Part shown: positions 5,753 to 36,551 of the stretch, one piece after another | How the letters are laid out: each line of letters begins with the position of its first letter | How positions within the stretch are numbered: the first letter of the stretch is position 1 | Origin: Sphaerotilus montanus | Lineage (GTDB): Bacteria; Pseudomonadota; Gammaproteobacteria; Burkholderiales; Burkholderiaceae_C | Reading direction: 5' to 3' | Length of the DNA stretch: 64,000 nt | Assembly: GCF_013410775.1 (NCBI RefSeq) | Contig: NZ_JACCFH010000001.1 | Location: 1-64,000, forward strand | The notes under the pieces: generated by a model | The model's input: only the letters and a program-made list of their open reading frames with translations | What the model was told of the DNA's origin: nothing | The model's database searches: none | Program-made: the position numbers and the translations under genes

Positions 5753-5808
5753 GTCATTCCCGCGCAAGCGGGAACCCACCGGCCGCTGACCTTCCCGGTC
5801 CAGCGGCC
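5753..5808. repeat. REP-like palindromic element after actP
   Basis: Two hairpins follow each other. TTCCCGC/GCGGGAA lies at 5757-5774 with a GCAA loop, and GGCCGCTG/CAGCGGCC at 5781-5808. The first, with its flanks (GTCATTCCCGCGCAAGCGGG), closely resembles one arm of the 81-nt inverted repeat at 26504-26584, so it appears to belong to a dispersed palindromic family. It may also protect the 3' end of the actP mRNA. Confidence 0.7.
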
Positions 5809-24489: not shown

Positions 24490-25118
24490 GGGAGGGGGTC
24501 CTTGTTCGGTGCCGCGTCGAGCAGCGTCCATCCCGCGAGCAGCCGGGTGCCAATCGTCAGGCCGCAGAGCGCCGCAAAGCCCAGCGCCAGTGCGGGGAAC
24601 GCCGCCGGCCACAGGCACATCGCCGCGAAGCACAGCAGCGTCTCGGTGCCTTCGGTCAGGCCACCAAGGTAATAGAAGCCTTTTTGCGGATAGGCCGCGC
24701 TGTTCAGGCCCTGCCGCTCGGCCAGGATGGCGAAGGCGAGAAAGCTCGACCCGGTGCCGATGAACGCGGCCAGCAGCACGGCGGCGGCCAGCGCGTTGTG
24801 CGCCGGATCCAGCACCGCGAAGGCCAGCGGCACGCTGGCGTAGAACAGGAAATCGAGCGCGATGTCGAGGAAGGCGCCGCGCGGTGTCGGCGTGGTCAGC
24901 CGTGCAACCGCGCCGTCCAGCCCGTCGGCCAGCCGGCCCAGCGCCATCAGCAGCAGCCCCGCCAGCGGATGCCCCAGCGCCACCAGCCCGCTGCCCGACA
25001 GGCCGACCACCGCACCCGCCAGCGTCACCGCGTCCGCCGACACGCCACGCCGCACCAGCGCCCCGGCGAGCCGCTGCACCGCGGGCGTGAGCCAGGAGAG
25101 CACCAGTCGATCAAGCAT
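24486..25118 (-). CDS. CDP-alcohol phosphatidyltransferase (YnjF-like)
   Basis: A 210-residue integral membrane enzyme with the CDP-OH-P motif spread over DGLDGAVAR, then PRGAFLDIALD, which provides the metal-binding aspartates. Hydrophobic helices flank it on both sides. Such enzymes transfer a phosphatidyl or related group from a CDP-linked donor to an alcohol. YnjF in E. coli sits next to the ynjBCD transporter genes, matching the neighbourhood here. The start overlaps the 3' end of the ATPase gene by 8 nt, and the stop overlaps the fusion-gene start by 4 nt. The acceptor is unknown. Confidence 0.86.
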   Translation of the reverse strand: MLDRLVLSWLTPAVQRLAGALVRRGVSADAVTLAGAVVGLSGSGLVALGHPLAGLLLMALGRLADGLDGAVARLTTPTPRGAFLDIALDFLFYASVPLAFAVLDPAHNALAAAVLLAAFIGTGSSFLAFAILAERQGLNSAAYPQKGFYYLGGLTEGTETLLCFAAMCLWPAAFPALALGFAALCGLTIGTRLLAGWTLLDAAPNKDPLP

Positions 25119-25770
25119 CCGGGCCTCCATGGAAATCGGGGCCCAGATCCGGCAAGGCCAGCACCTGCGCGCCGGGCGGGATGTCGGCCGGATCGTGCGT
25201 GACCAGCACGGCCGGCAGGCCGTGGCGGGCCAGCGTCTGCCAGACCAGCGCCCGCATGGCGGCCCGCAGCGACACATCCAGCCGCGAGAACGGCTCGTCC
25301 AGCAGCAGCGCCCGCGGCGCGGCCAGCAAGGTGCGCAGCAAGGCGACCCGCTGCCGCTGGCCGCCGGACAACTGGTGCGGGCGCTTGGCCGCGTGCGCGG
25401 ACAGGCCGGCCTCGGCCAGCGCTGCCTCGGCGCGGGCGACACGCTCGGCACGCCAGCCGGCGGGCACGGCAAAGAGCAGGTTGTCGAGCGCGGTCAGGTG
25501 CGGAAACAGCAGGTCGTCCTGGAACATCAGCCCGAGCCGGCGGGCCTCGACCGGCAGCGTGTGCAAGGGCAGGTCGTCCAGCCACAGCCCGCCACTGGCC
25601 TGCAGCGGCGGTGCGGCCAGCCCGGCCAGTGCCTGCAGCAGCGAACTCTTGCCGCAGCCGCTCGGCCCGGTGACCACCAGCACCTCGCCGGGCGCCACCA
25701 CCGCATTCACCGGCCCGACCAGCACCCGGCCGTGCAGCGTGACGGTCACATCGACCAGCCGCAGCGTCAT
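25111..25770 (-). CDS. ABC transporter ATP-binding protein (YnjD-like)
   Basis: A 219-residue ABC ATPase with Walker A GPSGCGKSS, Q-loop MFQDDLLFPHL, signature LSGGQRQRVAL, Walker B RALLLDEPF and H-loop VTHDP. Its length is close to E. coli YnjD (217). It starts with ATG overlapping the permease stop by 4 nt. Together with the permease and Tat-exported binding protein it forms a complete importer. Its substrate is unassigned; thiamine or metal has been suggested for related systems, without evidence here. Confidence 0.9.
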   Translation of the reverse strand: MTLRLVDVTVTLHGRVLVGPVNAVVAPGEVLVVTGPSGCGKSSLLQALAGLAAPPLQASGGLWLDDLPLHTLPVEARRLGLMFQDDLLFPHLTALDNLLFAVPAGWRAERVARAEAALAEAGLSAHAAKRPHQLSGGQRQRVALLRTLLAAPRALLLDEPFSRLDVSLRAAMRALVWQTLARHGLPAVLVTHDPADIPPGAQVLALPDLGPDFHGGPDA

Positions 25771-27488
25771 GGCCGCACCGCCTGCGCGCGACCGACCATG
25801 CCGGCCAGCGCAAATCCCAGCAGCGGCAGCAGCGCCTGCAGCACCGCGAACGCTGCCCCGGTCGCCCGCTGTCCACCGGCGGACAGCGTGACCGCCTCGG
25901 TCGTCACGGTGGCGAGCCGGCCGGCGCCGATGAAGAGCGTCGGCAGGTACTGCCCCACGCTGACCGCGAAGCCCACCGCCAGCGCCGAGGCCAGCGGCGC
26001 GGCCAGCAGCGGGCCCTTCACCTGCCACGCCAACGCCAGCCGCGAACGGCCGAGGGTCTGCGCCACCCAGGCGTGCCGCGGGTCGAAGCGCCGCCACGCC
26101 GGCAGCAGCGTCACCAGCACATAGGGCAGCGCCATCCAGGCGTGGACCAGTGCCAGCCCGGCGAAGGTGCCGTCCAGCCGCAGCGCCAGCGCGATCCGGT
26201 AGACGCCCACCATCAGCAGCAGGCCCGGCACGACGACCGGCACCAGCGCGACAGCGGTCGCGGCACGGTCCCAGGCGGGCGGGGTCGCCTCCAGCCACAG
26301 CACCACCAGGGCCACCGACAGCGCGGACGCCACCAGCGCCACGGCCAGCGTCGTCCACAGCGTGCCGGCCGCGGCGCCGACCTGCGTCCACGCGGCCAGC
26401 GTCCACACGGTCGGCCACAGCGCCGGAAAGCGCCACACGCCGCTGACCGAGGCGACGACCAGCGCCAGCCCCGCCGCCAGCCAGAGCGCTGCCAGCCCCC
26501 CTTCCGTCATCCCCGCGCAAGCGGGGACCCACGATCTCCAGCGTCCGTTCCTTGCGTGGGTCCCCGCTTGCGCGGGGATGACGGAGTGGCGAGGTCCGCG
26601 CACGGACCAGGCCTGGCGCACTGGACGCAGTACACGCCACAGCGCCAGCCCCACCCCCGCGCCCACCGCCATCACGCCCACCAGCACACACGCCGCTGCT
26701 GCGCCTTGCGCATTGCGCAGCGGATCGGCATCCAGCAGCCACTGCCAGGCCAGCACCGCCAGCGTCGGCGGTGCCCCCGGCCCGAGGACCAGCGCCATGT
26801 CCACCACCGTCAGCCCGTACGCGGCGACCGCCGCCACCGGCCACACCAGCGCCCCGCCCCACCCCGGCCACACCACGCGCCACCAGACCTGCGCCGGCGT
26901 GTAGCCCAGGCTGCGGCCGAGCGCGAGCTGCTGGCGCAGCCGCGGCGCGACGTCCGGCCGCGCCAGCAGCGCCGCGATCGTCCAGAGCAGGAACGGTGTC
27001 TCCTTCAGCACCAGCGCCAGCGTCAGCGCCAGTGCGTGCGGATCGTTCACGGTGGTCCAGTCCGGCGGCACGTCCCAGCCTGCCAGCGGCGCCAGCAGCC
27101 GGGCGATCCAGCCGCCCGGCATCCACAGCAGCAGCAGCCCGATGGCCAGCGCCGCGTGCGGCACGGCCAGCATCGCAGGCAGGCGCCGCTGCAGCGCCGT
27201 CCAGCGCGGATGCGCCCAGAGGCAGGTCGTCAGCCACAGGCTCAGTGCGGTGGCGATCAGCGTGCTGCCCAGGCCAGACACCAGCGAGGAACGCAGGGCG
27301 GGCCCTGTCTGCGGATCGTCCCGCAGCGCCTGCCACGCCGCGGGCTGCCCCGCTTCGCTTAAGGCCACCGCCAGGGCCAGACCCAGCGGCAACGCCACCA
27401 ACCCGATGCCCGCCCCCCGTGCCGCCCAGCGCGCCAGGCGCCACGCGACCGGCGACGGCGCGCTCAGCGCCCGTAACGCCGCAGCCAT
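25767..27488 (-). CDS. ABC transporter double permease (YnjC-like) interrupted in frame by a palindromic repeat
   Basis: A 573-residue permease made of two modules with about six transmembrane helices each, matching the fused architecture of YnjC (about 510 residues). The first module's EAA-like region includes LALGRSLGYTPAQVWWRVVW. The second includes VAQTLGRSRLALAWQVKGPL. Residues about 302-329, at the linker between modules, read VIPAQAGTHARN and WVPACAGMTE, the translation of an inserted 81-nt inverted repeat (27 codons, frame kept). The ATG at 27486-27488 overlaps the binding-protein gene by 25 nt. The insertion lies in a cytoplasmic or periplasmic linker, so function is probably kept. 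Confidence 0.86.
   Translation of the reverse strand: MAAALRALSAPSPVAWRLARWAARGAGIGLVALPLGLALAVALSEAGQPAAWQALRDDPQTGPALRSSLVSGLGSTLIATALSLWLTTCLWAHPRWTALQRRLPAMLAVPHAALAIGLLLLWMPGGWIARLLAPLAGWDVPPDWTTVNDPHALALTLALVLKETPFLLWTIAALLARPDVAPRLRQQLALGRSLGYTPAQVWWRVVWPGWGGALVWPVAAVAAYGLTVVDMALVLGPGAPPTLAVLAWQWLLDADPLRNAQGAAAACVLVGVMAVGAGVGLALWRVLRPVRQAWSVRGPRHSVIPAQAGTHARNGRWRSWVPACAGMTEGGLAALWLAAGLALVVASVSGVWRFPALWPTVWTLAAWTQVGAAAGTLWTTLAVALVASALSVALVVLWLEATPPAWDRAATAVALVPVVVPGLLLMVGVYRIALALRLDGTFAGLALVHAWMALPYVLVTLLPAWRRFDPRHAWVAQTLGRSRLALAWQVKGPLLAAPLASALAVGFAVSVGQYLPTLFIGAGRLATVTTEAVTLSAGGQRATGAAFAVLQALLPLLGFALAGMVGRAQAVRP
26504..26584. repeat. 81-nt perfect inverted repeat (REP/MITE-like) inside the permease gene
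   Basis: The arms 26504-26533 and 26555-26584 are perfect 30-nt reverse complements separated by 21 nt. Each arm contains CCCCGC GCAA GCGGGG-type hairpins. It resembles the element after actP (5753-5774). The total length of 81 nt is a multiple of three and adds 27 codons without a stop. Confidence 0.92.
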
Positions 27489-28702
27489 TCCTGCTCGATC
27501 GGATCGACCCACGAGCCATGCGGCTCCGGCCACACCGGCGCGACACGCTGCACGATGCCCGGCACCGGGTTCGCCTGGAACAGCGCCCGCTCGGCCGGCG
27601 TGAGCCGGTTCATCGCCAGCACGGTCGGATCGCCCCACTGCCGCACGTCCGCCTTGCGCGCCTGCGCCGCGGGCGAGAGCAGGAAGTTCGCCACCACCTG
27701 CGCGCCCGCCCTGGCGCGGGCGTTGAACGGGATCGCGACGAAGTGCGTGTTGCCGACCGTGCCGCCGCTGTGCTGGTAGCTCACCACCGAGGACGACAGC
27801 TTGCCTGCCAGCATCTCGCTGGCCGCCTCGTTCGGGTTGAAGGTCAGGCTGATCCACAGCTCGCCATCGGCCAGCATCTGCCGCGCCACCGCGTCGCTGG
27901 CAGGGAACAGCCGGCCCTGGCGCCACAGGTGCGGGTGCAGCGCGTCGAGCGCCTTCCACAGCGGCGCCGTGACGCGGCCGAAGGCCTCGGCGCTGTAGGG
28001 CTTGCCGAGCGCGGCACGGTCGGCGGTGGTTTCCATCAGCACCTGCTTGACGAAGGTGGTGCCATGGAACTGCGGCAGCCGCGGATAGGTGAAGCGCCCC
28101 GGGTGGCGCAGCGCCCAGGCGGTCAGCTCGGTGATGTTGTCGGGCACGGTTGTCACGCGCTGGCCGTCGGCGAAGAAGGTGAGCTGCGCCATGCCCCAGG
28201 GCGCTTCCAGGCCGTCCACCGGCTCGGAGAAGTCCAGCCGCGTCGTCGGCTTGCCGACCACGTCCACGGCGGCAAATGCCGGCAGCGCCTCCGCCCAGGG
28301 ACCGAACAGCAGCGCCTCGCGCTTCATGGTCAGGAAGTTCTCGCCGTTGATCCACAGCAGATCGACCGAGCCGTCTGCCGTGCGCCCCGCCGCCTTCTCC
28401 GCCCGCACGCGGCGCACCACTTCGGCCGCGTCGGTGATCTTGACGTGCTGGAGCGTCACGCCATGCAGTCGCTGCACCTCGCCCGCGACCCACTGCAGGT
28501 AGGCGTTGATGCGCTCGCTGCCGGCCCAGGCGTTGAAGTAGACCGTCTGGCCGCGCGCGTCGGCCTCGGTGCGTTTCCATGCAGCCGAATCGGCAGGCGC
28601 GGCCCAGGCTGGCCAGGCACCGGAGGCGACCGCAGCAGACAGGAAGGTACGGCGGGACAGTGCACGGGCAGCAGAAAGTCGGTTCACGGAATCCTCGAGC
28701 AT
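27464..28702 (-). CDS. Tat-exported ABC substrate-binding protein (YnjB-like)
   Basis: A 412-residue extracytoplasmic solute-binding protein of the iron/polyamine/thiamine-type fold. The N-terminus LSRRTFLSAAVASGAWPAWA is a twin-arginine signal (SRRTFL), so export is probably by Tat in a folded state. Body landmarks are VYFNAWAGSERINAYLQWVA, DGSVDLLWINGENFLTMK and DAVARQMLADGELWISLTFN, which fit YnjB (388 residues in E. coli). The ATG at 28700-28702 starts the signal peptide; upstream in-frame sequence is not conserved-looking. It is the first gene of the importer operon, 35 nt after the DoxX gene on the same strand. Confidence 0.9.
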   Translation of the reverse strand: MLEDSVNRLSAARALSRRTFLSAAVASGAWPAWAAPADSAAWKRTEADARGQTVYFNAWAGSERINAYLQWVAGEVQRLHGVTLQHVKITDAAEVVRRVRAEKAAGRTADGSVDLLWINGENFLTMKREALLFGPWAEALPAFAAVDVVGKPTTRLDFSEPVDGLEAPWGMAQLTFFADGQRVTTVPDNITELTAWALRHPGRFTYPRLPQFHGTTFVKQVLMETTADRAALGKPYSAEAFGRVTAPLWKALDALHPHLWRQGRLFPASDAVARQMLADGELWISLTFNPNEAASEMLAGKLSSSVVSYQHSGGTVGNTHFVAIPFNARARAGAQVVANFLLSPAAQARKADVRQWGDPTVLAMNRLTPAERALFQANPVPGIVQRVAPVWPEPHGSWVDPIEQEWLRRYGR

Positions 28703-28737
28703 GGAAAAACGCCGGCTGATCGGACACCGGCGGTCGA

Positions 28738-29211
28738 TCATGCCAGTGCCGGACGGCCAGGGACGAAGCGCGGCCCGATGACCGCATCCGCCGACCACCG
28801 ACCCGGCCCCCACAGCACCAGCCCGGCCAGCAGGCTGCCCCAGAACACGTGCAGTGCAAACGCCGCTTCCGGCATCTCCGGCACGCTCAGCACCGCGACC
28901 ACGTTCATCACCGACAGCCCCAGCGCCGCGAAGCGCCCGCCCAGCCCGAGCACCAGCAGGACGGGCAGGACGATCTCGCCCGCCGTGCCGGCGAAGGCCG
29001 CCACCTCGGGCGACAGCAGCGGCACGTGGTACTCCTCGCTGAACAGCGCGAGCGTCGTCTCCCAGTCGCGCAGCTTGGTCAGGCCGGACAGGAAGAAGAC
29101 CTTGGCGACGAACAGCCGCGCCGCCAGCTGCGCCAGCGGCTGCAGCGATTCGCAGAGATCGATCAGGCGGGCATGGCCGCGGCGAAGGGTGGGGAGGAGG
29201 TCGGTCAGCAT
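28738..29211 (-). CDS. DoxX-family membrane protein (BufD-like)
   Basis: A 157-residue protein with four hydrophobic helices and the DoxX core LAARLFVAKVFFLSGLTKLR followed by EIVLPVLLVLGLGGRFAALG. DoxX proteins are regularly encoded as the last gene of DUF2282-DUF692-DUF2063 (bufferin) operons, and this one lies 27 nt after the DUF2063 gene. It is expected in the inner membrane, possibly with an electron-transfer or modification role; that is inference from context. Confidence 0.88.
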   Translation of the reverse strand: MLTDLLPTLRRGHARLIDLCESLQPLAQLAARLFVAKVFFLSGLTKLRDWETTLALFSEEYHVPLLSPEVAAFAGTAGEIVLPVLLVLGLGGRFAALGLSVMNVVAVLSVPEMPEAAFALHVFWGSLLAGLVLWGPGRWSADAVIGPRFVPGRPALA

Positions 29212-29238
29212 GGGGGTCTCCAGACAGGGGTCAGGTGC

Positions 29239-30045
29239 TCACGGGGTCACGTCGATGTGCACCAGCAGGCCATCGGCCACCGCAGGCGCGAGCCAGTGCG
29301 CAAAATCAAAATCGGGCACCTCCAGCGCCCCGGCCAGCGCCTGCCCTTGCAGCAGGGTGCGGCGCAGGAAATCCGTGGTCGGCACATCGACCGCGGCCAC
29401 CCGCACGACCCAGCCCTGGCGCCAGACCAGCGCCGTCTCGGCACGCTGCTCCGCCAGGGCCAGACGGGCCTCGGCAAAGGGATCGGCCAAGGCGGTCTGC
29501 TGCGGGTCGTGGTGGGCGCGCCAGACCGTGACGACCGGGTGGGCGCTTTCCACCAGCGCCAGCCCGGGCGCCGGGCGCAGCACGAGGCGCTCCGGATCGG
29601 TGTCGCCCAGCCGCATCAGCGTGGACAGGTCCGGCGCCACATCGGCCGCGCCCTCGCCTCGCGCGACTGCGTCGTCCAGCCGCGCCGCGTCGGCCAGATA
29701 CGGCAGCTCGGCCAGTTGCGCGGCGTCGGCAAGGAAGGCGGGCAAGTCGTCGCCCCACTGCGCCAGATCGCCCCGCGCGGGCGGCGAGTGGCGCCAGAAG
29801 GCGCGGGCCATCGGCGCGAAGGTCTCGTCGCCCAGCATCGCTTGCACCGTCGGGTAGCGGGCCGCCAGCGCCTGCTCCGCGTTGACGGCGGCGTTGGCGG
29901 CGTAGACCGTGAGTCCGCGGGCCAGATCGGCACGCGCCGGGGCGCGGGTCCAGCCGGTGAGCGCACCGGGCTGGCCCGTGCGCAGCGCCTGCATCAGCAT
30001 CCGCTGGCGGATCTGCTCGCGCCGGCGTGCGTCGTCGGGGCTCAT
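29239..30045 (-). CDS. DUF2063 partner protein (BufC-like)
   Basis: A 268-residue protein. The N-terminal DUF2063 'putative DNA-binding' domain contains [40 protein letters not shown] and [10 protein letters not shown] variable C-terminal beta-rich domain follows. In MNIO systems this protein assists the enzyme and probably recognises the leader of the precursor peptide, despite the old DNA-binding name. The start overlaps the MNIO stop by 4 nt (ATGA), which is typical of an obligate pair. Confidence 0.9.
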
Positions 30046-30899
30046 GCGCGGGCCCCCTGCTGCACGGCGTCGGCCTGCGCCGCTTCGGCCAGCAGCACGT
30101 CGAGCGTCGGCAGGTCGGTGTCCCACTCGATCAGCGTCGGCACCGGACCATGGCGCCGCACGGCGTGCGCGTAGACCTGCCAGACGGGCGGGTGCACGCG
30201 GCTGCCGTGGTCGTCGATGACCAGCGTGTCGGTCTCGACATAGCCGGCGAGGTGGATCTCGCCGGCCACACCGGGCGCGAGCCGGTCGACCCAGGCGCAG
30301 GCGCGGCGCACGGCGGCAGCCTCGTCGTCGCCCGCGTTGAGCGCGTTGACAACGAGGTTGTTCACGTCGAGCAGCACGCCGCAGCCGCTGCGCTGCGCCA
30401 GGGCGTTGAAGAAATCGGGTTCGGTCAGACCATCGTCGGCCCAGGCCAGGTAGGCGCTCAGGTTCTCGACCAGGATCGGGCGGCGCAGGCGCTCCTGCAC
30501 CTGCTGCACGTTGCTGACCATGATCGCCAGCGCAGCGTCGGTGAAGGCGATCGGCAGCAGGTCGCTGCCATGCCAGACCGGCGCGCCCCGCCCCGGATCC
30601 ACCCGGGCGAAGCTGGCGTGGTCGGACACCCGCACCGGCTCGACGGCGGCGACCAGCTCGGCCAGCCGGTCCAGGTGCCACGCATCCAGCCCGCAGGCGC
30701 TGCCGAGCGACAGGCCGACCCCGTGCAGGCTGACGGCGTAGTCCTGGCGCAGATCGGCGAGCACGGCGCGGGCGGCGCCACCCGGCGCGAAGTAGTTTTC
30801 ACTGTGGACTTCGAGGAAGCCCAGCGGCGGGCGCTGCTGCCGGAGCAGCGCCGCGTGGGGCTGGCGCAGGCCGATGCCCGCAGCGGTCGGTGCAGGCAT
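30042..30899 (-). CDS. MNIO enzyme (DUF692/UPF0276), BufB-like
   Basis: A 285-residue TIM-barrel multinuclear non-heme iron oxidative enzyme. Conserved metal-ligand and active-site stretches are [55 protein letters not shown] and [13 protein letters not shown]. In bufferin systems the enzyme modifies cysteines of the small precursor. Here the probable precursor is encoded 10 nt upstream and the DUF2063 partner overlaps by 4 nt. The precise chemistry on this substrate is not visible from sequence. Confidence 0.93.
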
Positions 30900-30909
30900 G
30901 GCGGGCTCC

Positions 30910-31185
30910 TTACTTCTTCATGCCCATCTTGGCCTCGTCGGCCGTCATGCCCTTCATGTCCTTGCAGGTGCCCTTGGGCACGTACTTCCATTCGTCGGCG
31001 CCCATGTCGGCCTTGCTCTGGCCGGCGCAGGAGTGGGTGCCCGAGAGGTTGGCGCAGTCGTTCTGGCCGGCCTTGGCGATGCCGTAGCACTTTTCCTTGG
31101 CCTTGTCCTGCGCGGCGGCCGGAGCGATGGCGCCCATGGCGAGCACGGAAGCGAGGGCGGAAGAGAGGATGAGGCGCTGGTTCAT
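30910..31185 (-). CDS. DUF2282 precursor peptide (BufA1-type bufferin)
   Basis: A 91-residue precursor. A Sec-type signal peptide (about residues 1-26, ending APAAAQ) precedes a mature part of about 65 residues. Four cysteines, Cys33, Cys44, Cys53 and Cys74, lie in [18 protein letters not shown] and PKGTC, the characteristic DUF2282/BufA1 pattern. The Lys-rich tail ends MGMKK. The ATG at 31183-31185 follows GGAG (CACCGGAGTTCCGAC). It is first in the operon, immediately before the MNIO enzyme. By analogy with Caulobacter bufferins the product would be a cysteine-modified, secreted copper-binding peptide. The family match is strong; the copper role here is inferred. Confidence 0.92.
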
Positions 31186-31275
31186 GTCGGAACTCCGGTG
31201 AAAAGATGGCTGGTTGGTCAGGGAGAGCATCTCGCTGATCTGCCTGTGCGGCGGGAATGTTCAGCGGACAGGACT

Positions 31276-31304
31276 CTGTCGCACGGCACCCCGGAGTCCT
31301 TACA
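31276..31304 (-). promoter_or_regulatory. Candidate ECF sigma promoter for the bufferin operon
   Basis: Read on the minus strand, TGTAAGG (31304-31298) is followed after 16 nt by CGACAG (31281-31276). This resembles the GTAACC-N16-CGAA form I recall for SigF-type bufferin promoters. It lies about 90 nt before the bufA-like start and in the intergenic region shared with the ECF sigma gene. A dyad GGACTC/GAGTCC (31271-31276 and 31294-31299) overlaps it. Confidence 0.45.
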
Positions 31305-31347
31305 CTGCCGACAACAAATTTTTCGGCATGCGCCGATCCCGCCCCCC

Positions 31348-31914
31348 ATGAGTGACTTCGCCCGGCAGGTGCAAGCCCTGCGCCCGCAACTGCTGCGCTA
31401 CGCCCGCAACCAGCTGCGCAACGACGCCTGGGCGGAAGACGCCGTGTCCGAGACGCTGCTGGCCGCGCTGGAGAAGCCCCAGGCCTACACCGGCGCGGCC
31501 CAGCTGAAGACCTGGCTGATCGGCATCCTCAAGCACAAGGTGATCGACCAACTCCGCCGGCACCGGCGCGAGGTCTCGACCACCTCGGACGACGAGGACC
31601 GGGAGGATCTGGACGAGTGGCTGTTCCGGGCCGATGGCCACTGGCGGGAGATGCCTGCCGACTGGGGCAATCCGGGCGCGGCGCTGGGGCAGCGGCAGTT
31701 CTTCGAGGTGCTCGAAGCCTGCATGGAGCATCTGCCGGGTCAGCAGGGCCGTGTCTTCATGATGCGCGAGTGGCTGGAGCTGGACACCGACGAGATCTGT
31801 AAGGAAACCGGCGTGAGCGCGACCAACCTGTTTGTGCTGCTGCACCGCGCCAGGCTGCGCCTGCGCGAATGCCTCCAGGTGAACTGGTTCACCGGCCACC
31901 ACAAGCCGACCTGA
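31348..31914 (+). CDS. ECF RNA polymerase sigma factor
   Basis: A 188-residue extracytoplasmic-function sigma factor. Region 2 covers QLLRYARNQLRNDAWAEDAV and KTWLIGILKHKVIDQLRRHR. Region 4 covers LPGQQGRVFMMREWLELDTD and ETGVSATNLFVLLHRARLRL. The ATG at 31348 fits the start of sigma region 2. It is divergent from the bufferin operon and is followed 12 nt later by a small zinc-finger protein. The likely targets are the bufferin operon and its own gene. It is an inferred functional analogue of Caulobacter SigF. Confidence 0.92.
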   Translation: MSDFARQVQALRPQLLRYARNQLRNDAWAEDAVSETLLAALEKPQAYTGAAQLKTWLIGILKHKVIDQLRRHRREVSTTSDDEDREDLDEWLFRADGHWREMPADWGNPGAALGQRQFFEVLEACMEHLPGQQGRVFMMREWLELDTDEICKETGVSATNLFVLLHRARLRLRECLQVNWFTGHHKPT

Positions 31915-31926
31915 ACGGAACACGCC

Positions 31927-32142
31927 ATGCGACTGCTGCTGACCTGCAAGGAAACCACCCGCCTCGTGCTCGAAGGCGAAGACCGCACGCTGCCGCTGGG
32001 CGAGCGCGTCCTGATACACCTCCACCAGCGCATGTGCAAGGGCTGCACCCGCTTTTCCAGGCAGGTGCGGCTGATGCACGGCGCGCTGGACGACTGGCGC
32101 CGCTACGCCGACGGCAACGACCAGACTCCGCCCGCGCCCTGA
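31927..32142 (+). CDS. Small zinc-finger (zf-HC2) anti-sigma candidate
   Basis: A 71-residue soluble protein with Cys7 and a HxxxCxxC signature (His33, Cys37, Cys40 in HQRMCKGC), typical of zinc-binding anti-sigma domains. No transmembrane helix is present, unlike the membrane anti-sigma partners known for several bufferin loci. It is co-directional with and 12 nt behind the ECF sigma gene, so control of that sigma by thiol or metal chemistry at the zinc site is likely. It ends 1 nt before the converging glycosyltransferase stop. Confidence 0.82.
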   Translation: MRLLLTCKETTRLVLEGEDRTLPLGERVLIHLHQRMCKGCTRFSRQVRLMHGALDDWRRYADGNDQTPPAP

Positions 32143-32143
32143 G

Positions 32144-33412
32144 TCAGCGGGCGCGTGATTGCTGGAAACTGTCCAGCGCGGCGTCGGTCACCGTCTGTCC
32201 CTCGCCCTGCATCTGGTGCAGCGGCGCCGAGGGTTTCAGGACACGGCGCAGCGCCTTGCGCAAGGCCGTGGCAGGCGACAGGCGCCCGGTGAGCAGGCGC
32301 CGCAAGACATCGGTCCCCCGGATCCAGCCGCTGTAGAGGCGCCCCGCCGCCGCATCTCCGGGCACCAGCCGCGCCAGCGCCAGCCGCGGCCAGGCCACCC
32401 ACAGCCCCCGCTGCCACGCCGCCGCCTGGCGCAGATAGCCGATGGCGTCCTGCCGGAGTCCCAGCGCCAGGGCGCGGTGACCGGCCGCCAGACAGTAGTG
32501 ACGGCGCAATCGCAGCGTCTCCTCGTCGGTGCAGTCCGGCCCGGCAAACAGCTCGTCGAAGAACCCCAGCTTGTTCACCTCGAACCGGTAGGCTCCGCTG
32601 CCCGTGGCCAGATGGGCCTGCGCCAGCGGCTGGTTGCCAGCGGCACGCTCGTACTTGATCGCCGAGGGCACCGCGATCATGCTGGCCGGAAACTCGCGCG
32701 CCAGCCGGGCGAGAAAGTGGTAATCGGCCGCACTGCGCGTGCGGGTGGCGAACGGGCCGATCTGCGCGATGGCCTCGCGCCGGCACATGGTCACCGGGAG
32801 CCAGTTCAGATAGCCCCAGCGCATGTGCTGGAACAACATGCCCTCGTAGACCATCGCATCCGGCCGCCCGAGCGACTCGACGATCGCGCGGCCCCAGGCC
32901 CCGACGATGCGCTTGCGGTCGTAGACGCGCAGGTAGTCATCCTTCACGCCCGTCGGCAGCAGCAACGCACGCGAACGGATCGCCCGGGCAAATCCGTCAT
33001 AAAGAACGCCGATGTCATGCCGATCATGGAGGATAGGAGGCGAACCATCGCCCAGGTCCTCGACAAACTCGGTGGTCACCCAATGCCGGTCCGGATGCGC
33101 GTTCAGGAATGCCGTGGTCAGCGCCAGAAAGTGCGGCAACCACTCGTCGTCGGAATCCATGAAGGTCACGAATCGTCCGCGCGCAGCGCGCAAGCCCGTG
33201 TTGCGGGCGACGTACACGCCCTGATTGGATTGCTCGATGTAGCGGATGCGCGGGTCGAGCGACTCGATGCGGGCGCGTGTGCCGTCGGTCGAGCCATCAT
33301 CGACCACGATCAGCTCCCAGTCTTGGTGGGACTGCATCAGGATGCTGGCCACGGCGCGCCCGATCACGTCCAACCGATTGAACGTTGGAAGGACTATAGA
33401 TACTTCAATCAC
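32144..33412 (-). CDS. Family 2 glycosyltransferase
   Basis: A 422-residue GT-A enzyme. The N-terminus SIVLPTFNRLDVIGRAVASI, the metal/nucleotide motifs VVDDGSTDGT and FMDSDDEW, and the acceptor region are typical of GT2. A long C-terminal helical extension of about 150 residues (from about residue 270) has no recognised domain. It is the left flank of a surface-polysaccharide block and faces away from the deacetylase and flippase genes, sharing the roughly 500-nt leader region with them. Donor and acceptor sugars are unknown. Confidence 0.88.
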   Translation of the reverse strand: MIEVSIVLPTFNRLDVIGRAVASILMQSHQDWELIVVDDGSTDGTRARIESLDPRIRYIEQSNQGVYVARNTGLRAARGRFVTFMDSDDEWLPHFLALTTAFLNAHPDRHWVTTEFVEDLGDGSPPILHDRHDIGVLYDGFARAIRSRALLLPTGVKDDYLRVYDRKRIVGAWGRAIVESLGRPDAMVYEGMLFQHMRWGYLNWLPVTMCRREAIAQIGPFATRTRSAADYHFLARLAREFPASMIAVPSAIKYERAAGNQPLAQAHLATGSGAYRFEVNKLGFFDELFAGPDCTDEETLRLRRHYCLAAGHRALALGLRQDAIGYLRQAAAWQRGLWVAWPRLALARLVPGDAAAGRLYSGWIRGTDVLRRLLTGRLSPATALRKALRRVLKPSAPLHQMQGEGQTVTDAALDSFQQSRAR

Positions 33413-33917
33413 TTGTCAAGCTCGCAATCACCAATCATCAGGCTCATTCGAGAACCCGGTCACAAGCAAGTTACTTTTCTTGCCTGAGACGATGCTAATC
33501 TCAACAAATGTTGCGGTCTACAATGGAATGGCACTCAATCAAACGCTTCATTTTGGAGTCAGCTTTGCAGCAGCCGGATCTGTCACGATTCGACACCAAA
33601 AAGCGAATACAGGTGCATGCAAGCGCGAATTTCATGACCGTTTCAACGTCCGACTGGCTGGCAAGCTTCACAATACGGCCGGCCGACTGGCCAACGCACG
33701 TTCAGTTCGGGTCGCGGCGGTCAGGCATTTTCAGCAAACACGGCCCAAGGCAGTCCCGATCCTGCATGCACGGATGTGTAATTTTCATTTACATCGCATG
33801 TCAAGGCGATTCAGCGCTCGACTTGCAGGATCTGGCTTGCCAAGTGGAAACATCAAGTTACGTTACGCATAATATGAATGCTACGGGTACGCAACCCGGG
33901 GAGTGGGAGCACCTCTG
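33413..33917. promoter_or_regulatory. AT-rich divergent leader of the polysaccharide block
   Basis: About 505 nt without a credible gene. The base composition is lower in GC than the flanks, with a GCAAG/CTTGC dyad near 3346x-3348x (around 33465-33482) and an AT-rich CGCATAATATGAATG near 33865. A 136-residue open frame over part of it lacks any domain character. Promoters for the glycosyltransferase (minus) and the deacetylase gene (plus) probably lie here; none can be assigned with certainty. Confidence 0.45.
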
Positions 33918-34898
33918 ATGATCAGGATTTCACGTCCGATTGCACGCTGGTTCGTGCAGGCCCGGTATCCATCGGGCACCAATCTGTTGCCCATCCTGAT
34001 GTACCACCGGGTGTTGACCGAACCCGATCCGCTGCAGCCTGATGTGCCGCACCAGGCGCTGCTGGCGGAGCAGTTCCGCACGCTGGCCGGCGCCTTCAAT
34101 GTGCTCCCGCTGCACGAGGCAGCGGAACTCCTGCGCAACGGCGGCTTGCCGCCGGGCGCGGCCTGCATCACCTTCGACGACGGCTACCGCGACAACCACG
34201 ATCTGGCACTGCCGCTGCTGCGCGAGTACAAGCTGCCCGCCACCGTGTTCGTGGCCTCCGGCTTTCTCAATGGCGGTCGCATGTTCAACGACTCGGTGGT
34301 CGAGACGGTGCGGCGACTCGACACCGGCGAGATCGACCTGTCGCGCGTCGGACTCGGCAAGCGTCTGGTGAGCGACATGGCCTCGCGCCGCACACTGATC
34401 GGCGAGCTGACCAAGGCGGTCAAGTACCTGGACCCGGTCGAACGCGACGATTTCTGCGAAGACCTGTGCCGCCGCGCCGGATCGCGCCTGCCAACCGACC
34501 TCATGATGGACGACAGGCACGTCAAGGCGATGTCCGATGCGGGCGTCGACATCGGCGGGCACACGGTCAGCCATCCCATCCTGGCCCGCGTCGATGGCCC
34601 GGCGGCCCAGCGCGAGATCGAGAGCAACCGCGACCACCTCACCGCACTGACCGGCCGGCAGCCGCTGTGCTTCGCCTACCCGAACGGCAAGCCGAACCTG
34701 GACTACACCTCCGCGCACGCACGCATGGTGAACGGTGCCGGCTACAAGGCGGCGGTTTCCACGGCGGTCGGCGTGGCATCCGACGATGCGGACACCTTCC
34801 AGTTGCCCCGCTTCATGCCACGCGAACGCAGTGCCGCACAGTTCGTGGCACGCATGGTGCGCATGGCCACCCACCGACATCGACAGGTCGCCGATTGA
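33918..34898 (+). CDS. Polysaccharide deacetylase (NodB domain)
   Basis: A 326-residue carbohydrate-esterase-4 protein. Motif 1 is ITFDDGYRDN (catalytic Asp pair). Motif 2 is GGHTVSHPIL (metal His pair). The late motif is CFAYPNGKP. YHR near the N-terminus (ILMYHRVLTEPD) is typical of exopolysaccharide-locus deacetylases. The ATG at 33918, after GGAGCACCTCTG, is preferred over one five codons upstream. It probably trims N-acetyl groups from a surface glycan made by the adjacent transferases. Confidence 0.9.
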   Translation: MIRISRPIARWFVQARYPSGTNLLPILMYHRVLTEPDPLQPDVPHQALLAEQFRTLAGAFNVLPLHEAAELLRNGGLPPGAACITFDDGYRDNHDLALPLLREYKLPATVFVASGFLNGGRMFNDSVVETVRRLDTGEIDLSRVGLGKRLVSDMASRRTLIGELTKAVKYLDPVERDDFCEDLCRRAGSRLPTDLMMDDRHVKAMSDAGVDIGGHTVSHPILARVDGPAAQREIESNRDHLTALTGRQPLCFAYPNGKPNLDYTSAHARMVNGAGYKAAVSTAVGVASDDADTFQLPRFMPRERSAAQFVARMVRMATHRHRQVAD

Positions 34899-35006
34899 CC
34901 TACACTTCTGCGCTTTCAGAGTTCACGGAGACCGTCAGGTCCGATTGATGGCAGGGTTTTCTATTGCACCGGGCTGGATGACGCCCCTGCCAGTCGGAGT
35001 GAAGCG

Positions 35007-36551
35007 ATGAGCAACCAGTTCGGTGCCAAGGCCATGCTGCGCTCGGCATTGCTGATGACGGGGTCGACCTACGTCGCGTACGCCGCCGGTCTGGTGGCGA
35101 GCATGCTGGTGGCGCGTGGACTCGGTCCGGCCGACTTCGGCCGCTATGCCTACCTGATCTGGCTGTCAGGCGTGCTGGTGCTGCTGATGAACCACGGCCT
35201 CACCACGTCCGCGATCCGCTTCGTCTCCGAGTCCCTTGGTCGCGACGACCTCGCGGGAGCGCAGGCGCTGCACCGCTGGTTCCAGAAGCGCCAGGGCTGG
35301 TCGATCCTCCTGATCGGTGCGCTTTTCCTGCTCGGGGTGCCCATCCTCAAGCCCGCGGGCTGGGAAGGCCACCTGACCTACTTCGCCTTCGTGGCGCTGG
35401 TGGCCTCCGCGACCAAGGCCTGGTACCTGTTCAGCATCTCGGTCGCCAAAGGCCACGGGCGCTTCGGCGTCGAGGCCAGCTCGGTGAGCGCCCTCAGTCT
35501 GGTGAACCTCGTCGGTGCCGGCATTCTGGCGATGATGGGGGTGCCGCTGGAAGGCTTCATGCTGCTGTTCCTGCTGGTTTCGGTGGCCCACCCGGTCATG
35601 GCCACCCTGCAGTTGCGCCGCGCAGACATCCGCAAGGGCGGGCGAGACTGCCAGGAGACCCTGCTGCAGCGGGTTCGCCCCCATCTCTTCTGGACCATGG
35701 TGTCCACCTTCGTCTTCGCCTTCAGCAACAAGGCGGTCGAGACCTTCCTGTTGAACAAGCTGGCCGGCGCGGAGGCCGTGGGCTTCTTCACCATCGCGGC
35801 CACCCTGACACGCGGAGGAGTCGAATTGCTGTCCACCGGGCTCACCACGGTGCTGATGCCGATGATGGCCAATGCCTTCGGGGCGGGCGGGCGCGAGCGG
35901 GTCAACCGCATCGCCGGCGATGCCGTCCGGTACTTCCATTTTCTCGGACTCCTGCTCACGGGCGTGGGCTTCTTCTGGGCCACGCCGGTCATTGCGCTGA
36001 TGTATGGCGACAAGTACGCGCCCGCCGCGTTTGCCCTGCAGATGATGGTGATCATCCGAGGCTTCACCCTGTCGCACGCGGCCTTCGGCGCACTGCTGTC
36101 GATCACCGACAACCAGCGCCTGCGGGCGGCCGAATCGATCTTCGCGGTCATCGTCAGCGCGGCGGCTGCGCTGTGGCTGGTGCCGCTCTACGGTCTGCAG
36201 GGCGCCATCCTTGCGCACATGCTGTCGACCGCGGCCGTGTTCCTCTTCTCGTTCGGCTGTGTGCGGGTGGTGCTGAAGGTGCCATTGCCCTATGGCGACG
36301 CCGCCCGCATGACCGCCGCAGCCCTCAGCGCTGCCGCCGTGTCGATGGGGGCGCTGATCGCCACCGACTCGCCCTCGTCGCTGCACCAGATTCTGGTCGG
36401 CATCCTCTACGTCCTGACTTACCTGGCGTGCACCTTGATCTTCAAGGTCTGGAACCAGTACGATCTGGCCATGCTCGGTAATCTCGGCCATCGGATTCCC
36501 GCATTCAAGCGACTGGCTTTCCTGCTGATTCCCTGGGTCCGCCATGTCTGA
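35007..36551 (+). CDS. Polysaccharide flippase (Wzx/MATE-like oligosaccharide flippase)
   Basis: A 514-residue integral membrane protein with about 12-14 hydrophobic helices, beginning MLRSALLMTGSTYVAYAAGLVASMLVARGLGPADFGRYAY, given here in overlapping parts of the usual flippase N-terminus (LVARGLGPADFGRYAYLIWL). The central KAVETFLLNKLAGAEAVGFF matches the family. It exports lipid-linked sugar units across the inner membrane. It lies between the deacetylase gene and a glycosyltransferase gene, all on the same strand. Confidence 0.88.
   Translation: MSNQFGAKAMLRSALLMTGSTYVAYAAGLVASMLVARGLGPADFGRYAYLIWLSGVLVLLMNHGLTTSAIRFVSESLGRDDLAGAQALHRWFQKRQGWSILLIGALFLLGVPILKPAGWEGHLTYFAFVALVASATKAWYLFSISVAKGHGRFGVEASSVSALSLVNLVGAGILAMMGVPLEGFMLLFLLVSVAHPVMATLQLRRADIRKGGRDCQETLLQRVRPHLFWTMVSTFVFAFSNKAVETFLLNKLAGAEAVGFFTIAATLTRGGVELLSTGLTTVLMPMMANAFGAGGRERVNRIAGDAVRYFHFLGLLLTGVGFFWATPVIALMYGDKYAPAAFALQMMVIIRGFTLSHAAFGALLSITDNQRLRAAESIFAVIVSAAAALWLVPLYGLQGAILAHMLSTAAVFLFSFGCVRVVLKVPLPYGDAARMTAAALSAAAVSMGALIATDSPSSLHQILVGILYVLTYLACTLIFKVWNQYDLAMLGNLGHRIPAFKRLAFLLIPWVRHV

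Follow-up and report, generated by a model that had tools for sequence, protein, structure and literature searches.

A Buf1-type bufferin operon of Sphaerotilus montanus with a divergent ECF sigma factor, a soluble ZAS-type anti-sigma and a promoter-like motif inside the sigma gene

The window analysed here is a 64,000-nucleotide stretch of Sphaerotilus montanus DNA (positions 1 to 64,000 of contig NZ_JACCFH010000001.1), and its segment 28738–32142 is, on the strength of family matches, a Buf1-type bufferin operon accompanied by a divergent pair of genes for an extracytoplasmic function (ECF) sigma factor and a soluble anti-sigma of the ZAS (zinc-type anti-sigma) kind. Bufferins, which bind copper, have only recently been named as a class of peptides, and for Buf1 clusters the accessible text of the bufferin survey mentions no regulators other than those of the SigF/NrsF type (PMC12452194). 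The buf operon (28738–31185) is read on the minus strand and the sigma and anti-sigma genes on the plus strand (Table 1). Within the operon bufA and the MNIO gene are separated by 10 nt, the MNIO and DUF2063 genes overlap by 4 nt and a 27-nt gap precedes the DoxX gene. An earlier note, made from the letters alone, had described a signal-peptide-bearing four-cysteine DUF2282 peptide, an MNIO enzyme, a DUF2063 partner and DoxX as one minus-strand unit in the bufABCD layout of Caulobacter. Its coordinates and spacings proved correct, the families lie over their Pfam cut-offs, including the three models proposed there as a check (DUF2282, DUF692 (PF05114) and DUF2063), and Caulobacter indeed has the same gene order with an ECF sigma alongside.

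Table 1. Genes and sequence features of the bufferin locus (coordinates in the window).
Feature	Position	Strand	Support
bufA, 91-aa DUF2282 (Buf1) precursor	30910..31185	minus	PF10048 90.5 bits, cut-off 22.4
bufB, MNIO (DUF692) enzyme	30042..30899	minus	PF05114 297.9 bits, cut-off 25
bufC, DUF2063 partner protein	29239..30045	minus	PF09836 68.7 bits, cut-off 27.2
bufD, DoxX-like membrane protein	28738..29211	minus	PF07681 64.2 bits, cut-off 23.6
ECF sigma factor, 188 aa	31348..31914	plus	TIGR02943 238 bits, cut-off 162; PRK12520 302, cut-off 255
Soluble 71-aa ZAS-type anti-sigma (Cys7, His33, Cys37, Cys40)	31927..32142	plus	NF052368 'antisigmaE' 59 bits, cut-off 50
Putative ECF promoter motif of bufA, GTAAGG-N16-CGAC	31278..31303	minus	common upstream of bufA in relatives
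Promoter-like copy inside sigma gene (region 4), GTAAGG-N15-CGAC	31799..31823	plus	104 nt before anti-sigma start
Possible operon terminator: GC hairpin then five T, just after doxX	28705..28732	minus	fold

Pfam and NCBIfam taken together support all six gene assignments; the NCBIfam models for HvfX (56 against a cut-off of 80) and HvfC (13 against 142) were clearly missed. BufB has a relative of solved structure (PDB 3bww, E 2.4e-29), and the genome search returned one DUF2282 match. The hairpin after doxX is a modest terminator candidate, with a fold of −14.9 kcal/mol and a z of −1.22 (20 of 200 shuffles are as good); it is absent from the terminator scan, whose limit of 8 its loop exceeds.

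The arrangement recurs widely. Our near set comprises the window and the best 80 of 381 sigma relatives in named genomes, from Sphaerotilus, Leptothrix, Roseateles, Pelomonas, Aquabacterium, Inhella and other genera; none was dropped, and some stretches are short at contig ends. The small anti-sigma adjoins the sigma gene in all 80 of these named loci, and in 63 of them the buf operon (bufA–MNIO) is divergent from sigma, so that the layout is not due to chance; in the remaining 17, neither MNIO nor DUF2282 is matched in the stretch examined. Of 200 genomes of the host family, 91 contain the anti-sigma; plasmid searches with the sigma and with DUF2282 gave distant matches only, including one in Cupriavidus oxalaticus.

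Upstream of bufA a motif of the form GTAAG[GT]-N15/16-CGAC is present in 59 of the 64 buf-linked loci (the window and loci of the near set), 46 times with N16 and 13 times with N15, over spacers of varying sequence. A looser form at spacing 16 occurs in 46/64 loci, compared to a mean of 2.07 and a maximum of 8 in mononucleotide shuffles. Nine loci of the genus besides the window were available, and the motif is found in all six of them in which bufA is seen. It fits both the Neisseria sigma-E promoter, given as GTAAGGTT and CGTCTAA (PMC2893595), and the Caulobacter sigma-F promoter, GTAACC-N16-CGAA (PMC3511200). No sigma-70 promoter for the sigma gene appeared in the scan. An inverted repeat lying over the bufA promoter (AGGACTC-N17-GAGTCCT, 31270–31300) was considered as an operator and is treated as chance, since the 59 aligned promoters show no conservation downstream of CGAC. 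Neither the bufA motif nor its copy within the sigma gene, both of them putative promoters, figures in the earlier note.

The 71-residue anti-sigma carries the H-x3-C-x2-C signature (H33, C37 and C40 in the window) that is present in all 81 near-set anti-sigmas, the window included. A strict pattern detects the N-terminal cysteine in 69 of the 81; in the other 12 it lies behind a longer assigned N-terminus. C7, H33, C37 and C40 are invariant in the 55 sequences that could be aligned out of 81. Mean hydropathy does not exceed 1.46 over any 19-residue stretch of the 81 proteins, so that a membrane helix is not to be expected, in agreement with the proposal of the earlier note that this is a soluble HxxxCxxC protein. 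The predicted structure consists of three helices (pLDDT 87); sequence searches against solved structures gave nothing useful for it, and it has no match to NrsF (PF06532). Since the anti-sigma is of the soluble ZAS type, sensing most likely takes place in the cytoplasm, as had also been suggested; the pairing with sigma and the binding of zinc are plausible from the gene context and the conserved residues. The same note presented this inhibitor as a departure from the known locus, which holds in comparison with the Caulobacter SigF–NrsF pair. It is, however, not peculiar: by its sequence signature the soluble ZAS regulator appears to be the rule among the relatives (80/80 of the best-scoring named loci), with parallels in Neisseria MseR and Haemophilus HrsE.

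BufA has a Sec-type signal peptide, judged by eye, and cysteines at positions 33, 44, 53 and 74. Their spacing is 10-8-20 in 61 and 10-6-20 in three of the 64 loci, and all four are invariant in the 41 of 64 sequences that were aligned, together with E31-K32 before C33, N42-D43 before C44, H51, and A54-G55 after C53. The structural model is too poor to use (pLDDT 60.6), and comparison with solved structures by sequence was not informative. Modification in Buf1 peptides affects the two central cysteines, while the outer pair is joined in a disulphide (PMC12452194), so of the four candidate modification sites named in the earlier note, correct in position, only Cys44 and Cys53 are expected to be modified. 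The 5-thiooxazole chemistry and copper binding are known from relatives (PMC12452194, PMC13097082), for one of which a mass loss of 4 Da at each modified site is reported (PMC13097082), and by analogy thiooxazoles, copper binding and induction may be anticipated at the window locus.

The second copy of the motif lies inside the sigma gene. The strict intragenic motif is present in 48 of the 64 buf-linked loci. When codons are exchanged for synonymous ones according to local usage, 3.9 loci are expected, and the highest value in 300 runs is 12. If any base is allowed after GTAAG, the motif is found in 52/64 buf-linked and 58/81 of all near-set loci. The cysteine codon at the site is TGT in 52/64 buf-linked genes and 59/81 of all genes (the window included in both), while the other cysteine codons of the same sigma genes are TGT in only 26 of 222 cases. 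The codon that supplies the CG is NCG (CCG, TCG, GCG or ACG) in all 64 buf-linked genes, though the residue it encodes may be P, S, A or T. The same holds at the level of the order, for which we sampled 200 genomes; 90 of these, counting that of the window, contain a sigma match at E ≤1e-20. There were 94 matches besides the window's own, of which the five weakest were left out, and among the 89 loci examined 43 have the intragenic motif, compared to 4.1 after recoding (maximum 12 in 400 runs). Counting one locus per family gives 17.2 against 1.8 expected out of 35, and the motif occurs in 21 of these 35 families. The codon test at this level covered the 56 of 89 loci with a recognisable cysteine at the site, and 48 of these have NCG at the same codon. 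With sequences treated as independent, the enrichment of TGT over other cysteine codons has a Fisher probability of 3e-24 in the near set and 3e-14 in the order. Outside the order, 7 of 28 loci of the class carry the copy (the best-scoring 30 minus the window and one family member). Thus the intragenic motif appears from its codon pattern to be under DNA-level constraint family-wide; statistically the case is strong across much of the order and weakest in the window's own genus.

The presence of the copy can also be compared with the layout of the loci, available for all 80 near loci and, from 3-kb flanks, for 60 of the 89 order loci. It is found in 51/63 divergent near loci and 2/3 divergent order loci, and in 10 of 17 order loci where the operon lies downstream in the same direction. 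It is found in none of the five order loci that, like Neisseria, have a co-oriented MNIO gene upstream, so that an operon promoter could cover the inhibitor, and in none of three convergent loci. Where no operon is nearby, 6/17 near and 13/28 order loci have it. On the tree, only three usable independent pairs bear on the relation between motif and operon. We consider it probable, though a little less so than the account of the locus as a whole given below, that sigma genes of the TIGR02943 kind in Burkholderiales and some other gammaproteobacterial orders encode twice over in region 4, which would contain their own −35 and −10 elements. These would drive the anti-sigma (or the anti-sigma together with the buf operon, if that lies downstream in the same direction) and make the metal-stress response self-limiting, and they would have been dropped where an upstream operon promoter covers the inhibitor. 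As a separate observation, a sigma clade in Paucibacter/Roseateles (L063, L074, L087 and L097) has no nearby buf operon, shows C-K-E changed to CQQ or CRE and has lost the intragenic motif; it may have changed its target.

TGTAAG[GT]-N15/16-CGAC matches the 5.07-Mb genome at exactly two places, before bufA and inside the sigma gene. The sigma gene is present in 10 of 13 genus genomes, the window's included (genus counts leave out L217, a second, distant sigma match). The four named loci nearest to the window have TGC in place of TGT and fall with it in one clade (SH-aLRT 99).

Taken together, these observations suggest the following mechanism, in which a Buf1 cluster is controlled by a sigma switch of its own whose inhibitor is cytoplasmic, and to which, as the whole explanation, we give a probability of roughly 0.7. 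At rest the small anti-sigma would hold the ECF sigma. Thiol-active stress in the cytoplasm (copper, another soft metal or an oxidant) would disturb the Cys7/His33/Cys37/Cys40 site, presumably a zinc site, and free the sigma, which would read GTAAGG-N16-CGAC before bufA and so allow bufABCD to be transcribed. BufB and BufC would convert Cys44 and Cys53 of the precursor to 5-thiooxazoles, Sec would export the peptide, Cys33 and Cys74 would close a disulphide, and the exported peptide would buffer copper in the periplasm. In the family at large the promoter motif recurs toward the 3′ end of the sigma gene, so that the freed sigma would at the same time increase its inhibitor and close a self-limiting loop. 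The inducer, the zinc, the peptide chemistry, the copper binding and the terminator in this scheme are all putative.

Several observations weigh against this account. The BufB equivalog model NF050167 was narrowly missed (298.5 against a cut-off of 310, 11.5 bits short), the anti-sigma does not reach Pfam zf-HC2 (13.3 against 22.2), and Foldseek matches of its model are weak: none has E ≤0.001, and the best relevant one, RsiW (5wuq, second listed), has a TM of 0.63 and an E of 4.8. Five of the 64 loci lack the strict bufA motif, and two of these five (L096 and L080) carry variants, that of L096 lying outside the 700 nt upstream covered by the first scan. No motif points toward the sigma gene in any of the 64 buf-linked or the 17 other loci, which lends no support to classical autoregulation of sigma. 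The copy is missing from 46 of the 89 order loci; four of the 89 have no detected anti-sigma, and one of these four (L182, one of the 43 copy-bearing loci) has the intragenic motif all the same. In the genome search the reversed control pattern has more matches than the motif itself, five compared to two. The intact intragenic motif is found in none of the nine other genus loci, six having TGC for TGT and three having TGT with different codons after it, and codon usage alone would give TGT about 12–16% of the time; the window's own copy may therefore be either a survivor or a chance TGT. Finally, the MseR system of N. meningitidis is unresponsive to peroxide, diamide and singlet oxygen (PMC2893595), so that a redox trigger is not a safe assumption.

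How do the alternatives compare? The record of the genus would be explained if the intragenic motif were a by-product of the protein sequence (C-K-E and [PSAT]-T in region 4) combined with GC-rich codon choice. The control spacings of 12, 13, 14, 16, 17 and 18, which gave no match in the order set, are a weak control and say little on this point because the reading frame fixes the spacing at 15. The recoding counts, however, fall far short of those observed in both sets, TGT is enriched over the other cysteine codons, and NCG is kept while the residue changes, which makes a by-product improbable. It is similarly unlikely that the anti-sigma is not the main regulator, or that a periplasmic trigger acts via another protein while the ZAS protein merely tunes the basal level. 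Such an arrangement would agree with the silence of the MseR system toward the oxidants tried and with the gig operon of Cupriavidus metallidurans, which is similar and is said to answer periplasmic copper (PMC10304878, PMC11022561). But the anti-sigma adjoins sigma in all 80 named loci, and gig, whose sigma is of another kind and whose inhibitor is an NrsF membrane protein, is no guide to the window pair. A larger doubt concerns the signal and the cargo, as the peptide could serve against another metal or oxidant stress rather than copper: in Haemophilus a sigma whose inhibitor is comparable answers to hypochlorite and has msrAB under its control (PMC7907618), Caulobacter SigF responds to chromium and cadmium (PMC3511200) and MerC–Buf1 fusions exist (PMC12452194). 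Set against this, the characterised bufferins and EGKCG products bind copper (PMC12452194, PMC13097082), and we regard a purpose other than copper as possible but distinctly the less probable one.

Some neighbouring features may be noted. Downstream of doxX, and separated from it by the possible terminator, lies an apparent ABC transporter set (25111–28702, minus), with a solute-binding protein at 27464–28702 assigned by Pfam and a permease and an ATPase recognised by eye. The apparent permease frame contains an inverted-repeat element (GTCATCCCCGCGCAAGCGGG and its reverse complement) at 26506–26582, a further copy of the arm being found at 5753–5772. To the right of the locus, 32144–36551 is occupied by polysaccharide genes (a glycosyltransferase, a polysaccharide deacetylase and a polysaccharide-synthesis membrane protein). 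Sigma-type motifs were also seen at other genes in relatives. In L118, from another family, one lies on the minus strand from 1411, before genes for a cytochrome b561 and a molybdopterin oxidoreductase that are divergent from the sigma gene; the oxidoreductase resembles CC2748 of the Caulobacter sigma-F regulon (PMC3511200). In L139 (2259, plus) and L152 (4892, plus) they precede a radical SAM/DUF3641 gene (by eye in L152), which in L152 is followed by a TVP38-like membrane protein, also recognised by eye. In view of these last two cases, targets of the sigma family may extend to other metals or metalloids.

The locus is thus a further bufferin cluster, with a regulator of a type already known from Neisseria and Haemophilus, and it represents a second and common branch of regulation in which the inhibitor is small and cytoplasmic. 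The likely targets of the sigma can be read from the sequence, as the motif stands before the peptide operon and, family-wide, in the sigma gene before the inhibitor. Since the motif is kept in coding sequence, the feedback design is open to a simple test: one synonymous base change should break it and leave the protein intact.

Promoters within sigma genes have precedents in E. coli rseA P3 and Corynebacterium glutamicum PrshA, which presumably belong to other sigma lineages than that of the window. The former lies inside rpoE and drives rseABC (PMC8595263), and the latter lies inside sigH, is sigma-dependent and drives only the anti-sigma gene rshA (PMC3489674). No report of an intragenic anti-sigma promoter for the present sigma family or for bufferin clusters was found in the search listings and the cited papers of the open PMC library. 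In both known cases a sigma-dependent promoter that drives the anti-sigma gene but not the sigma gene was shown experimentally, while for the window's family the argument comes from sequence.

The closest parallel for the regulator is the Neisseria sigma-E operon NMB2140–2145, which has genes of the MNIO, DUF2063 and DoxX types under the sigma and a small soluble anti-sigma, MseR, with the same Cys/His spacing. C7, H33, C37 and C40 of the window correspond to MseR Cys4, His30, Cys34 and Cys37, among which Cys34 is essential, while full activity also requires Cys4 and Cys37 (PMC2893595). The promoter, GTAAGG..CGTC, also resembles the window motif (PMC2893595). In contrast to the divergent layout of the window, the Neisseria genes form one long co-directional operon, and the precursor there appears from context to be of the EGKCG class rather than Buf1. 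L196 and L199, two loci with a layout and promoter that look like those of Neisseria, have no intragenic copy. The Haemophilus RpoE2–HrsE pair likewise has a small soluble anti-sigma, HrsE being a cytoplasmic protein of 67 residues (PMC7907618).

On the side of the operon, the closest relatives have another kind of inhibitor. The Caulobacter SigF–NrsF/Buf1 clusters share with the window the bufA–MNIO–DUF2063–DoxX order, an adjacent ECF sigma and a GTAA..N16..CG promoter (PMC12452194, PMC3511200). Their inhibitor, however, is the membrane protein NrsF, whereas that of the window is a soluble ZAS protein paired with a sigma of the TIGR02943 kind. The gigPABT-rpoQ-rsqA locus of C. metallidurans shares all four operon genes and their order with the window, and there too they diverge from a sigma and an anti-sigma gene. 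RsqA is a 213-aa NrsF protein (245 bits), unlike the window anti-sigma, and is predicted to be membrane-bound (PMC10304878); RpoQ is a distant sigma with only 37 bits to the sigma profile built here, and GTAA[GC]N-N14..17-CGNC does not occur in the 8-kb gig stretch. The gig locus was therefore rejected as an exact precedent, its sigma and NrsF inhibitor representing another lineage. With RsqA of the NrsF type and the window protein of the ZAS type, it follows that similar buf operons are, to judge by these family assignments, run by two unlike types of inhibitor.

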